In this document: positions 14,545 to 44,200 of the stretch, in pieces
How the letters are laid out: each line of letters starts with the position of its first letter
Position numbering within the stretch: position 1 is the stretch's first letter
NCBI RefSeq assembly: GCF_000003815.2
Contig: NC_049986.1
Location: forward strand, 7,274,307 to 7,338,306
Direction of reading: 5' to 3'
From: Branchiostoma floridae
Taxonomy: Eukaryota; Chordata; Leptocardii; Amphioxiformes; Branchiostomatidae
DNA length: 64,000 nucleotides
The notes under the pieces: model-generated
Seen by the model: the letters and a program-made list of their open reading frames with translations, nothing else
The model's database searches: none
What the model was told of the DNA's origin: nothing
Translations under genes and position numbers: made by a program

Positions 14545-16168
14545 CTATGAAGCACCATATACGGAATAACCGCCACTGAAGACGTGCTTCTCGTTCCCAA
14601 CCAAGGCGGGAAAGAACGCACAGATCGTGATGGCCTCCCCTGTAGGCATTGCGTAGTGCGGGTCGTTCTTGTTCATCAAGAAAGCCGTACCCTTGGGATG
14701 GAACTCCGCTTCTTCTTTCCCTTCCTCCCACACGTATTTGCCGTTTCCTACAGAAAGTAATGGTAAAATTGATAACTGTGGTGATAAGAGAAGACCTTTA
14801 CGAACTAAACTTAGTACTTTGATACATTTGGTCATTTGCACAGAAAATGAGTAAATGCTACAATTGAAAATGGATAGGATTTCAGTGAAGGAGAAAAGCT
14901 ACGAAATCGCAGTGGTAAATGATGGGAATTTCATATTTGTGACATATACATAAAGTTTTGTAGATGGCATGTGCACCACCTTCTAATGTCATGCCGGTGA
15001 CATGTACAGTTGATATCAACCCACTCTCCATACGGCCCCAAAAAGGCTATGGGACTTCCCGGTTTACATTCTGTCTGTCTGTCCTTTGTGACACTGCCAA
15101 AATAAGTTAATAACTTGAGAGCAGTGTCACATTGTCCTCGTCTGTCTTAAAGTAAAATTTAAGATACAAACAGCTGTATAGAGATGGGTATCAAAAGTGA
15201 TAATAACTTGCGATTGTGTGTGATCACGGAAATGAAAGAACTGCCAATCATAAGCTTATCGTTGTGATGAGTGTTTACTGTTTACTTTGGAATTTTTATC
15301 TTTGCTTTCAGACAAGATATGTCCATAGCAACGTAACCAAACATACCACTGATATAGTAGCAGGCTTCTTTGTGGTGTTTGTACCACATGGGGACTCCCT
15401 TTTCTGTATCGTCTCCCATCATGATGGTCGTGTTGGTCACCGTGATCGGAAAACTGTCATCTCTAAGCAGGAATCTTCGGCTGTGGCCGCTCCCGAAGTC
15501 GACATCCCGATCGGTTCCGATGATCTCCGAGAGTGACCGAACAACCACTCCGTCTTTCGAGGGGTTGTCGTCTTGGCAGTAGAGACAGTACAGCCTCATG
15601 GGGTCATCCGAGGTCACTGTAACCTTAAGAACAAAACAAAAAGCAAAAAAAAAAAGATTTAATACGAATATTCTTGATGACACAATACAAGACATAGCTA
15701 TGCTTCTTTGTTAACAAAGAAGTAGCATTATTAGTACCGGTTCTTACTGGAGTTGTTCGTCATTTGTAGTACTTCTTTGTCATATTTTCAAGGAAAATCC
15801 GTGTCTTCCTGGCCCCTCCGTCCGTAAAAATTAAACACCTGTAACCATTCATTATATTTTGTACATACATGTGTGATCACCTTGCACTTAACAGCCGACG
15901 AAAACGCCATGAAGAAGTCCGGAGTGACTTTAAACTCCCTCCCGTCCTCCAGACTACAGCGCCCCCTACCGGAGATACAGTAGTACATGTGGTTACTGGC
16001 CAAACATTCACCAGGGTGCAGCTCGACTTCGTTCTGGTCCCGAGTCAGAACGATCTCGTACGCCGTGTAGCCCATCTCATCCGCCGGGGACACCAGCTCT
16101 TTCCCCCGAAGGACTGAGGTGTTTGGCACGGGGGCTATCGGAACATCTACGGTGTTACGGACGATCAT
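14545..16168 (-). CDS. EctC-like two-cupin protein (ectoine synthase family)
   Basis: Three exons (15881-16168, 15347-15623, 14545-14747) splice in frame into 255 residues. EctC closes N-gamma-acetyl-diaminobutyrate to the osmoprotectant ectoine; this protein's own substrate is unknown. It starts MIVRN like bacterial EctC. The C-terminal half has WYKHHKEACYYISG (about 176-189), DPHYAMP and a PALVGNEKHVF-x-GGY ending, all at EctC-like positions. The iron-ligand Glu (in HHKEA) and His (in DPHY) seem kept, while the usual ligand Tyr is Phe in GTAFLM. The N-terminal half (YYCISGRGRCSLEDG) looks like a second, degenerate cupin that has lost Glu and His. Bacterial EctC is a single cupin of about 130 residues, so this is a duplicated or fused form. 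No ectA or ectB relative lies nearby. Ureidoglycine aminohydrolase, also a bicupin, fits the motifs less well. Confidence 0.75.
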
Positions 16169-17060
16169 GGCGAGTTAGCGGTCAGTGTAGCAGTGTATGG
16201 CTGCGAAAATAACAAAATATTGACGAGAATAAATCGGCCAGTACCTTTTGAAAAGGGGTGTGCATGTAATACACTTTTTATAGCATTACCATTTACTTAG
16301 AGATAAATCATCATAAAAGATTAATAATCTTGATAATGATGAATTAAGGAAACCTCGCACATAATTAAATCGCTTCTTAATCCAGCCAACGCAGCTGCTA
16401 TGAAAATAGCAAAGAAGACTGGTAAGTTTTACGCACCTGTTTCTGAGTCTTTTTGAGAGCGAACAACCTTTGGAAGCTGCCTAAACCGGTCTAAACCGAC
16501 CCTTTTGCACACGGTGGTGTCTTGTTGTGAGAATAACAATAACAATGCCTTTAGCACCTGTACCTTGTGAAAAGGGGTGCGTATGTGATACACTTTTTAT
16601 TACATTACCATTAACTTAAAGATAAATAATAATATTAATGATATTTAAGTAAGGAAATCTCACATATAATGATTTAGCTTCTTAATGTAGCCAATGCAGT
16701 TGCTATGAAAATAGCAAAGAAGACTGGTAAATTTTACGCACCTGCTTCTGAGCCTTTTTGAGAGCGAACAACCTTTGGCAGCTGTCGAAACCGGTCTAAA
16801 CCGACCCATTCGCACTTAGCGGTGTCTGATTGTATGTGAGAATAACAAAGTGGCCTTGCGCACCTGCACCTCGTGAAAAGGGGTGTGTATGATGCAATTT
16901 TTTTATAACACATAATAATCTGATAATGATAAGGTATGGAAACCTCACACATTATGATGTCACGTCTTAATTCTACCAATTTAGCTGCTATAATATAGCA
17001 AATAATACGACCTTTGCCGAGCTACCCAAGCCGATTTAACCCGATCTTTTACTTGAAATT
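16169..17060 (-). promoter_or_regulatory. Upstream region of EctC-like gene: three tandem ~310 bp repeats
   Basis: Repeats start near 16,244, 16,563 and 16,868 (gaaaaggggtg, tgatacactttttat, atgaaaatagcaaagaagac). On the minus strand an acceptor (ttattttcgcag, exon from 16,200) sits 32 bases before the ATG. The first two repeats each carry a matching donor CAG|gtgcgt (exon ends 16,437 and 16,742). This looks like a spliced 5' UTR with alternative, duplicated first exons. The third repeat is more diverged. Confidence 0.6.
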
Positions 17061-17081: not shown

Positions 17082-17171
17082 GTCCACGGGGACAACAGCT
17101 TTCCCCCCGAAGGACTGAGTTGGTCGGCAGGGGGGCTATCGGAACATATATACGGTGTTACGGTCAATCAT
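17082..17171 (-). pseudogene. Broken copy of the first coding exon of the EctC-like gene
   Basis: Matches 16,080-16,168 over most of its length (ctatcggaaca, ggtgttacgg, ccgaaggactgag). The frame begins MIDRNTV, where the functional copy begins MIVRNTV, then is broken by a TA insertion and a stop. It sits beyond the third upstream repeat in the same orientation, so exon and promoter appear to have been duplicated together and the outer exon lost. Confidence 0.75.
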
Positions 17172-41278: not shown

Positions 41279-44200
41279 CTACATTTCCTCTAACTCCCCA
41301 ATCAGAACCATCATGTACACCCCAACTAGAAGGGCTGCGATCTCTTTGAAGGATTGCCAGATACTGGAGCGGCCGTCCAACAGTTCTGGTATTACTGAAA
41401 CCGTGGCGATGTAGATGAACCCCCCTGCTGTGAATGGTAGGATCCATATGGTTGCTGTAGCACCGCCTCCGCCTGCTAGGAGGCCGAACACAGTCCCAGC
41501 CATGGCACCAGTCGCTGTGCTGAATTGGAGAAGCATTGCCTGCATAGAAAACAAATAAAAACACACTTGAAGTTGAGGCGTTCTGTAAATGTAGGCATAC
41601 TGTAAATGCATTTAATTAATAAGTTTGCAGGGATTAACTTTTGTGGTAGCGGGAAAATGGAGTGATTGCGGTAGCGCCATAGACTGTAGACTTAAGATAT
41701 CAGCCTATTGGTGTCATGCTTATTAGCTTTTTGTGGCTCCCATACTTTCCACTTTGTTTGTTAGGAAAGAGAATGGGAGCCCTGGTAAACTGACTAGGAA
41801 TAGGGGTTTATCCAAAGTGTGAGTGGTCCAAACCTTACATTAAGTTACACTCTGGTCTCTGGACTGACATCTTGAAAAAGGTGACTGACACTACTTCCAA
41901 AAATGTGGTACATCTTAATCTATAATTATCATGGAAGCTCATCTGTGCTGGTAGTACTCATAGTACAATACCAAAACTTTCTTCCAATACAAACTTGTAC
42001 CTCACCTCACCTTAACAAACTTACACACGGATCAAATTTTCAATAACCACTGTCGCTTCTTCAGGATCAATACTGATGACCAATCACTTTAGAACGTAGA
42101 CTCTTGTTAACACGTGATCTTGGGGATACATAATGTCACCTCACCTCACCTCACCGGTCCCATAGCCTCATCGGCCGTAGGGGCAGTAATGCCATCAACG
42201 TAAGTTTTCCATCTCCTTCTATCTTCAGCCAGGGTTTCTAGCTGATGTACTGTTTGTCCCGACCATTCTTTCAGGTCACTTTCAGGTCACTACTAGTAGT
42301 CCAAGTCCGTCGTGGACGTCCCCTAGGTCTTACACCCTCCGCCCTTCCTTGCAGTATAGTGTGAGTTAGAGTGCCCTTTGCTCTTGTAGCATGGCCAAAC
42401 CACTGTAGTAATGTCAGCAGTTGATTAAACATGCTCAATCCATAGTTTTGTTACTAACCTTCTTCTTGGAGCAGCCTGACTGCACGAGGATGGCGAAGTC
42501 TCCGATCTCGTGTGGCACCTCGTGTAGGAGGATGGTGAGGGTGGTGATGATCCCCAGGCCGCGCCCCACCAGGAACGACGCCCCGATGGCCATCCCGTCC
42601 GTGAAGTTGTGCGAGAAGTCAGCCACCAGGTTCAGGTACCCGGCTATCTTGATGTCCTGAACAGGCTCTTCAACATCTGTGTCTGGAGAGCAAAATGGTA
42701 CATTGTGAATCAATTTAAACTAAAGATCCCATAGCCTTTTTGCAGCATATTCTAAAAGATATCAAAACTGGAAGTTCCCCTTGAGTACCATAGACAGCCA
42801 ATAGGGGACCCAAAGTATAAACATTTTCACGTCTCACCTACCCAGACACCAAATATTAAGAGAATCCATCCAACACAAATGCTGATAAAACTATAACATT
42901 CCTGGCAAACATAACAGCTTTAAAAGATTACAGAAGTGAAGGCCAAGACTCTCAGAGACAAATCCACTTTACAACAAACAAGAAAAAGATGAAATGGAGG
43001 ATTGCAGGAGTCTGCTGCAATCAACTAATTAACTATTAAGTATCTTTCCCTCAAAACTTAAAAATAATATTATAACTCACCTTCCTCCTCCTTCTTGACT
43101 TCTCCATCTTTCTCTTCTGAAGTTTCCTCTCCATCTCCTTTGCTGCTTTTCCTTTTTCTGAGCTCAGTTTCTCCCTCCCCCTCCTTATCATCAGTACTGC
43201 CCTCTTTCTCCTCTGCCTTGGGCTTGTCCTCCTCCTCTGCAGGTGCATTATGGGTATGCCCCGATGCACCATGGGAATGTCCGTGTCCCCCCTTTACATA
43301 CCGTACAAACTTCTCCACAATGAGGAATGCTAGGATGCCGGCTATTACCCAAAGCCCCACGCCGATGTCATGTGAGTGGCCGTGGTCACCACCATGAGAG
43401 TGACCGTGACCGTGAGAGTGACCATGTGAGTGACCATGACCATGACCATGACCGTGACCATCGTCCTCCCCATGTGAGTGTGGTGACGTGGCGTGTGGGA
43501 TGAGATGGAGGAAGGCATCTCCCAACAGGCCACCTGAGGCAAAACTCAACAACACCTGTGAACAAAAACAAACACATAAAGTTTGGTATCAATTCAGTCA
43601 GATTTTGTTACAAAATTCTGTCAATTACTCTCAATAACAAGCCATGACAGGTGTAGCAGGTGTAGCAAGCCAGACTACACTCCTGGCCAGAATATACCCA
43701 GGTACATTTTTGCATGGGGTATAATTTAACCTGCTACACTGTATGGTCATTGATATGTGTACATTGAAATTGCCATCTCTACAATATGAAAAAAGCATTC
43801 TTTTTTCAATCAAAAGCCATAACAGTACAGACATGGTTGATTTTAAATCATATTATTGGTTGATGTTAAGTGTGTCATTTACCATCATAAACAACTCAAA
43901 TGTTAATTCAGGTTAACATTTAACCATGTTATGATGTTAAATGATGTTATTGGTCGATGTTAAACATGTAATTTATTGTATTATGACCGATAGATGATAA
44001 GTGTTAGTATGACAACGTTGTAGTACTTAGTAGTTAAAATTTATTATATTTTATGGAAGAGGACTCCAGGAAGAGCAGTGGTTGGATGTCAACACTAAAT
44101 GAAGATTAATAAACAAACAAACAAACAAACAGACCTTGAGTAAGGGTTCGTGCTCCGCAGTGTTGGCCTCCAGTGGGATGAAGAGGAGGATAATGACTGG

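Follow-up and report, generated by a model that had tools for sequence, protein, structure and literature searches.

The window analysed here, a stretch of 64,000 nucleotides from Branchiostoma floridae, carries a gene whose three exons, all on the minus strand, splice into an open reading frame of 255 residues beginning MIVRN. Exon 1 (15881..16168) holds the start codon and most of a first, degenerate EctC-like cupin (residues 1-96), as judged from the spliced translation and a first-cupin profile search of the PDB (5e-4). It is followed by intron 1 (15624..15880; 257 bases, GT-AG, phase 0) and exon 2 (15347..15623), which encodes the end of the first cupin, a linker and the first half of a second cupin with the motif DFGSGHSRR and the Glu ligand in HHKEA. 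Intron 2 (14748..15346; 599 bases, GT-AG, phase 1) leads to exon 3 (14545..14747), which supplies the remainder of that cupin (Phe in place of Tyr-84, the His ligand in NDPHYA and the lid motif FFPALVGNEKH) and the stop codon. The coordinates and the 255-residue product given in a preliminary description of this gene were therefore correct. About 1 kb upstream, also on the minus strand, lies a degenerate, frameshifted copy of the first ~85 bases of exon 1 (17087..17171), recognised by a 50-base repeat at 88% identity and by alignment, and between the gene and this fragment a unit of ~305 bases recurs in tandem, in two to three diverged copies (16228-16991). Elsewhere in the window, His-rich exons of a ZIP-family zinc transporter (Pfam Zip), presumably resembling SLC39A7, occupy 41279-43588 on the minus strand, and no Rfam match was obtained across the 64,000 nt.

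Searched against Pfam, the window protein matched PF06339 (Ectoine_synth) with an E-value of 4.9e-30 and a score of 104.8 bits, above the gathering cut-off of 27, with the best stretch at residues 123-250, and the second cupin alone scored 87.8 bits (9.1e-25); the EctC-family search proposed in the preliminary description thus gave a positive answer. The best solved-structure matches in a PDB search were ectoine synthases, including 5onn (2.8e-14, residues 123-251), one of the entries 5ONM-5ONO, which we take to be the P. lautus enzyme. The S. alaskensis ectoine synthase (5BXX; excerpts of PMC5924519) matched at 5.4e-12 and was aligned from residue 123 to 250 or 251. For the first cupin of the window copy alone, the best Pfam match was Cupin_2 (5.9e-8), which together with the PF06339 match of the second gives the protein the bicupin architecture of two cupin domains in one chain. 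The first cupins of the two other complete gene models described below matched Ectoine_synth (C8b, 3.8e-4) and Cupin_2 (C14, 5.9e-4), both below the cut-off. A profile built from the three amphioxus first cupins was searched against all 177,635 distinct PDB sequences; 5onm-5ono ranked first (5e-4 to 9e-4), co-linear from residue 1, followed by unrelated proteins at 0.016-0.14 and the next cupin at 0.31, and the S. alaskensis EctC was absent from the profile's 18 PDB matches (up to E 10). Against 54 bacterial loci, which hold few competing cupins, the same profile matched EctC reading frames only (20 rows at E up to 1, best 5e-6). Scored against the NCBIfam ectoine synthase model PRK13290 (cut-off 128 bits), the window protein (105.1 bits), C8b (93.9 bits) and C14 (107.7 bits) all fell below the cut-off, and five bacterial proteins scored 135 to 192.8 bits. 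Judged by sequence, the second cupin is clearly related to EctC, and both halves of the window protein look EctC-like, the first half being degenerate and weakly so, which agrees with the earlier reading of two EctC-like cupins in an intron-bearing animal gene.

The gene has three sister loci in the same genome, on which the preliminary description was silent. A search of the 513-Mb assembly (431 contigs) returned seven exon matches with PF06339 and 13 with the window protein itself, at four loci, namely the window gene, C8:18.41 Mb (C8b; L010), C11:10.03 Mb (L008) and C14:12.86 Mb (L009). The C8b model comprises 254 residues in four exons and the C14 model 253 residues in three; the phase 0 and phase 1 introns are common to the three complete models, with an extra phase 2 intron in C8b. 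Exon 1 of C11 is frameshifted relative to C14, which may represent a pseudogene, an allele or an assembly error, and its second cupin is intact. Comparison of the window gene with C8b gave a dN of 0.30 and a dS of 1.37 (dN/dS ~0.22), and that of C11 with C14 over exons 2-3 a dN of 0.059 and a dS of 0.155 (dN/dS 0.38); the family is therefore under constraint (purifying selection). Membership in a mainly bacterial family could raise the suspicion of bacterial contamination or of an open reading frame that arose by chance, but the introns and the paralogues refute both: the gene has two introns, the three further loci sit on contigs of 21.8 to 25.6 Mb, zinc-transporter exons lie in the same window, and identity reaches at most 38.3% among the plasmid matches listed (40 of 112). 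Given introns, four loci and contigs over 21 Mb, we rejected contamination and a chance frame alike, and consider the probability of either negligible.

Bacterial relatives were surveyed with a profile of the three complete amphioxus proteins, which found matches in 57 of 398 Pseudomonadota genomes and 28 of 296 Actinomycetota genomes. Because all 62 and 31 rows start at profile position 98 or later, these matches cover the second cupin only. Among 72,556 plasmid records, 112 matched, none of them over 80% of the query, and the two-cupin form was seen in none of the 398 and 296 genomes or the 112 matching plasmid records. A pattern-based scan of genome contigs yielded three loci, and 48 stretches of viral contigs fitted a pattern, none of which encodes a relative. 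A bacterial or viral two-cupin parent was thus sought in the genomes of two bacterial phyla and in the plasmids, genome contigs and viral contigs sampled, and none was seen.

For comparison within the family, 52 bacterial EctC sequences were extracted, with three duplicate loci dropped. An EctB match was present in the flank of 37 and absent from that of 15, the flanks spanning ~1.5 or 4 kb and the contig of L014 starting just upstream, so that for this sequence only the other side is covered. Ten of the 15 EctB-less sequences carry WGNGxS, with Trp at position 18 instead of 21 (WGNGxSRR in six of the ten), and they constitute the orphan group used below, which was defined after sequence inspection. 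The amphioxus second cupins read DWG[SR]G[FH]SRR in three of four cases and DFGSGHSRR in the window copy, and WGxGxS is shared by those three and all ten orphans. In a 46-row tree that included the first cupins (14 near-copies dropped, ~130 columns), the amphioxus second cupins grouped with the ten orphans at 94/85, on a branch that was not starred and that amounts to a clade only with the root placed elsewhere; in a 57-row tree without the first cupins, they were placed where the orphans meet the remaining sequences, so that kinship with the orphans depends on the root. As a refined reading that relies on this unstarred branch, the closest bacterial kin within the sample would not be the ectoine-operon enzyme but orphan EctC proteins whose sampled flanks lack ectAB.

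The neighbourhoods of the orphans are mixed. Annotated flanks contain NRPS (L079), beta-ketoacyl synthase (L078) and halogenase (L075) genes, and that of L074 contains lysine 2,3-aminomutase and ATP-grasp genes amid transposase fragments. Pfam searches with 20 further frames around five other orphans gave matches for 12, namely an amidase, a glyoxalase, a penicillin-binding protein and a glycoside phosphorylase at L013, an ornithine cyclodeaminase, a creatinase, FKBP and EamA at L014, a transglutaminase and a PLP enzyme at L076, a histidine kinase at L015 and a LuxR regulator at L034. Such surroundings are compatible with amino-acid-derived metabolism, without naming a substrate. EctC has been linked to the anthelvencin cluster, which received no mention among the literature matches listed on EctC cluster chemistry. 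The function of orphan EctC is described as "so far unresolved" in excerpts of PMC5924519. Two other arrangements were recorded in the survey. At L036, in a Pseudomonadota genome (G207), two adjacent EctC frames lie ~170 bases apart in tandem, unfused. On a plasmid of Streptomyces sp. CA-256286 (L077), P450, ferredoxin and oxidoreductase genes lie between ectB/ectA and ectC, and the EctC has His at the Tyr-84 position, making this a possible modified-ectoine cluster.

We next considered the active-site residues, numbered as in P. lautus EctC and with roles taken from excerpts of PMC6344544. In the alignment, the window second cupin retains Ser-23, Arg-25, Thr-40, Tyr-52, His-55, Glu-57, His-92, Cys-104, Phe-106, Glu-114 and His-116; Tyr-84 and the orphan-type Trp-18 are each replaced by Phe, Asn-38 by Thr and Leu-86 by Met. 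The iron-ligand positions 57, 84 and 92 are occupied by Glu, Phe and His in the window copy and C8b, and by Glu, Tyr and His in C11 and C14; Trp at position 18 is kept in C8b, C11 and C14, so that C11 and C14 retain both Tyr-84 and Trp, and C8b retains Trp with Phe for Tyr-84. The alignment thus reproduced the earlier account of the second cupin, in which Glu and His were kept and Phe stood for Tyr, and added that the catalytic Trp is gone as well. It likewise bore out the loss of Glu and His from the first cupin: the first cupins lack metal or substrate residues, Glu-57 falling in a two-residue alignment gap and His-92 being replaced by Cys, and they still have His-55 and Cys-104, with Phe at position 106 in one and Tyr in two.

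Among the bacterial sequences, Tyr-84 is conserved in all ten orphans and 42 of the 43 other EctC sequences. Of those 43, 40 have Trp-21, and the remaining three (L053, L058 and L059), each with an EctB match alongside, naturally carry Phe, so replacement of Trp by Phe alone need not abolish function. Asn-38, which contacts substrate and product in P. lautus EctC (PMC6344544, in part), discriminates poorly, since Asn is found there in only four of the 43 others and one of the ten orphans. In S. alaskensis EctC, Tyr-85-Phe left 29% activity and an iron content of 9.4 mol% against 92.1 in the wild type (PMC4795551, Table 1), and Trp-21-Ala left 26% activity (PMC4795551), while Trp-21-Ala in the P. 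lautus enzyme left 9.7% (PMC6344544), as far as the excerpts of these papers go.

These substitutions could be taken to mean that the window copy has become a pseudoenzyme pure and simple, retained as a double-cupin protein for binding or scaffolding in a non-catalytic role. Replacement of Tyr by Phe and loss of Trp in the second cupin, together with a first cupin devoid of metal or substrate residues, would suit this, as would the continuing purifying selection. However, most other core residues of the second cupin are kept, including Thr-40, Tyr-52, His-55, Cys-104 and Phe-106, the bacterial Tyr-85-Phe enzyme is still partly active, and Phe at the Trp position has the three natural precedents above, and we therefore regard a pure pseudoenzyme as rather unlikely. 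The reading that we favour for the window copy is that, because Phe replaces both the Tyr ligand and Trp, it is probably weakened or non-catalytic, perhaps ligand-binding; having lost some key enzyme residues, it probably serves another function or a weaker version of the original one.

The genome was also searched for relatives of EctA and EctB, as the preliminary description had suggested. EctA (TIGR02406) gave no genome match at 1e-3 in this exon-by-exon search, which could overlook a gene that is highly split or has diverged far. EctB (TIGR02407), searched in the same exon-by-exon way, gave two single-exon matches, which scored 31.7 and 29.7 bits where the model's cut-off is 552.2; such matches are expected from other transaminases, since the model also matches below the cut-off in 14 of 14 control genomes. 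The osmolyte role that had been raised for the gene gained no support. The EctA and EctB results weigh against the idea that the lancelet proteins are genuine ectoine synthases, receiving N-gamma-acetyl-diaminobutyrate from food, symbionts or an undetected EctA. Two paralogues do retain the three iron ligands and Trp, and an orphan EctC of P. syringae yielded ectoine in an H. elongata ectC mutant (PMC5924519, in part). Nevertheless, besides the EctA and EctB results, the three proteins scored below the ectoine synthase cut-off and the window copy has neither Tyr nor Trp, which leaves ectoine synthesis an improbable function for the family.

As to origin, an animal gene that has introns, descends from EctC and encodes two EctC-like cupins was probably acquired long ago from outside animals. 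Of the ancient transfer followed by internal duplication that was first envisaged, the transfer is thus made plausible by the EctC ancestry, the two cupins and the introns, whereas the internal duplication found no clear support. Resemblance between the two halves is poor (hhalign probability 2.8), which leaves a recent internal duplication unsupported, and the best tree separates them; a topology uniting both halves of all copies was not rejected (p-AU 0.346), yet was not favoured. The first cupin might instead go back to a distinct EctC-like gene that was joined to the second cupin either before or after the acquisition. Its profile finds bacterial EctC but barely matches the second cupin, and the halves stay apart in the best tree; on the other hand, the first cupin forms a very long branch, and joining both halves survived the tree test. 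We hold this separate origin as a serious but tentative option, at somewhat less than even chances.

Overall, we lean towards a reading in which the window gene is one of four paralogous loci encoding a fused pseudo-dimer of orphan-type EctC descent, whose second cupin is a possible active site for EctC-type chemistry on another substrate, the window copy itself being probably weakened or non-catalytic. The gene model, its homology, the paralogues, the substitutions and the coding constraint are observations; the pseudo-dimer, the reaction and the substrate are interpretation built on them. EctC is a dimer in solution and in crystals (excerpts of PMC6344544), and the fusion of a dead cupin to a live one, EctC being a homodimer, leads us to infer a pseudo-dimer with one site. 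The first cupin would then probably be a built-in partner replacing the second subunit, and the second cupin the candidate active site. With Glu, Tyr and His ligands and Trp, the second cupins of C11 and C14 likely perform EctC-type chemistry. In the mechanism proposed for EctC, iron activates an amide carbonyl and an amine attacks it (PMC6344544, in part); by Lewis-acid activation of this kind, the amide carbonyl could condense with, or be released from, a neighbouring amine, so that a cyclic amidine would be made or opened. The substrate is probably not N-gamma-acetyl-diaminobutyrate, because the genome search returned no EctA. By analogy, one candidate is a glutamine-like amide: the EctC of H. 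elongata can also cyclise glutamine to ADPC, in a weak and reversible reaction (excerpts of PMC5924519). A more specific proposal, which we consider doubtful, is that of an animal-specific metal-dependent amidine cyclase or hydrolase, a fused EctC pseudo-dimer from orphan-type EctC that acts on a cyclic amino-acid derivative, in a family split into active copies and regulatory copies lacking Tyr and Trp.

EctC-related sequences in Branchiostoma floridae and Saccoglossus kowalevskii were reported by Harding et al. (via PMC5924519 and PMC5796728), and those sequences probably include these very genes. In the excerpts of PMC5924519 and PMC5796728, the lancelet relatives are given no analysis of architecture, copy number or residues, and a search of the open-licence literature, with most subscription journals outside it, returned no account of the two-cupin architecture, the paralogues and their number, the residue losses or the orphan ancestry. 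The existence of EctC relatives in lancelets is thus already known; the two-cupin build is unusual. An animal lineage has kept such a gene, fused it and duplicated it, apparently in the absence of EctA, and this suggests a useful reaction of the fold beyond ectoine. C14, with its intact site, and the two C8 copies, the window gene and C8b, which lack the Tyr ligand, provide a natural comparison.

Among known systems, the group nearest to the window copy in the tree including both cupins is that of the bacterial orphans from Rhizobium etli (L074), Mycetohabitans (L079), Gloeothece (L075) and Aliiroseovarius (L078), with which it shares Tyr-52, His-55, Glu-57, His-92, Phe-106 and the GxExH lid. 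These orphans read WGNGxSRR where the window copy reads DFGSGHSRR, with Phe for Trp; the orphans are single cupins of 125 to 129 residues without introns, in contrast to the two cupins and introns of the window gene, and Tyr-84 and Trp-18, found in every orphan, are both missing from the window copy. With the EctC of ectABC operons (5ONM-5ONO and 5BXX), it has in common the fold family as judged by sequence, the Glu and His ligands, most substrate residues and the lid region; the operon enzyme differs in being a homodimer of single cupins, with Trp at 21 rather than 18 and the Tyr ligand, and in P. lautus and S. alaskensis it presumably has EctA and EctB as operon partners. Bicupins such as oxalate decarboxylase also have two cupin domains per chain, as the window protein does, but belong to other sequence families with different metal sites.
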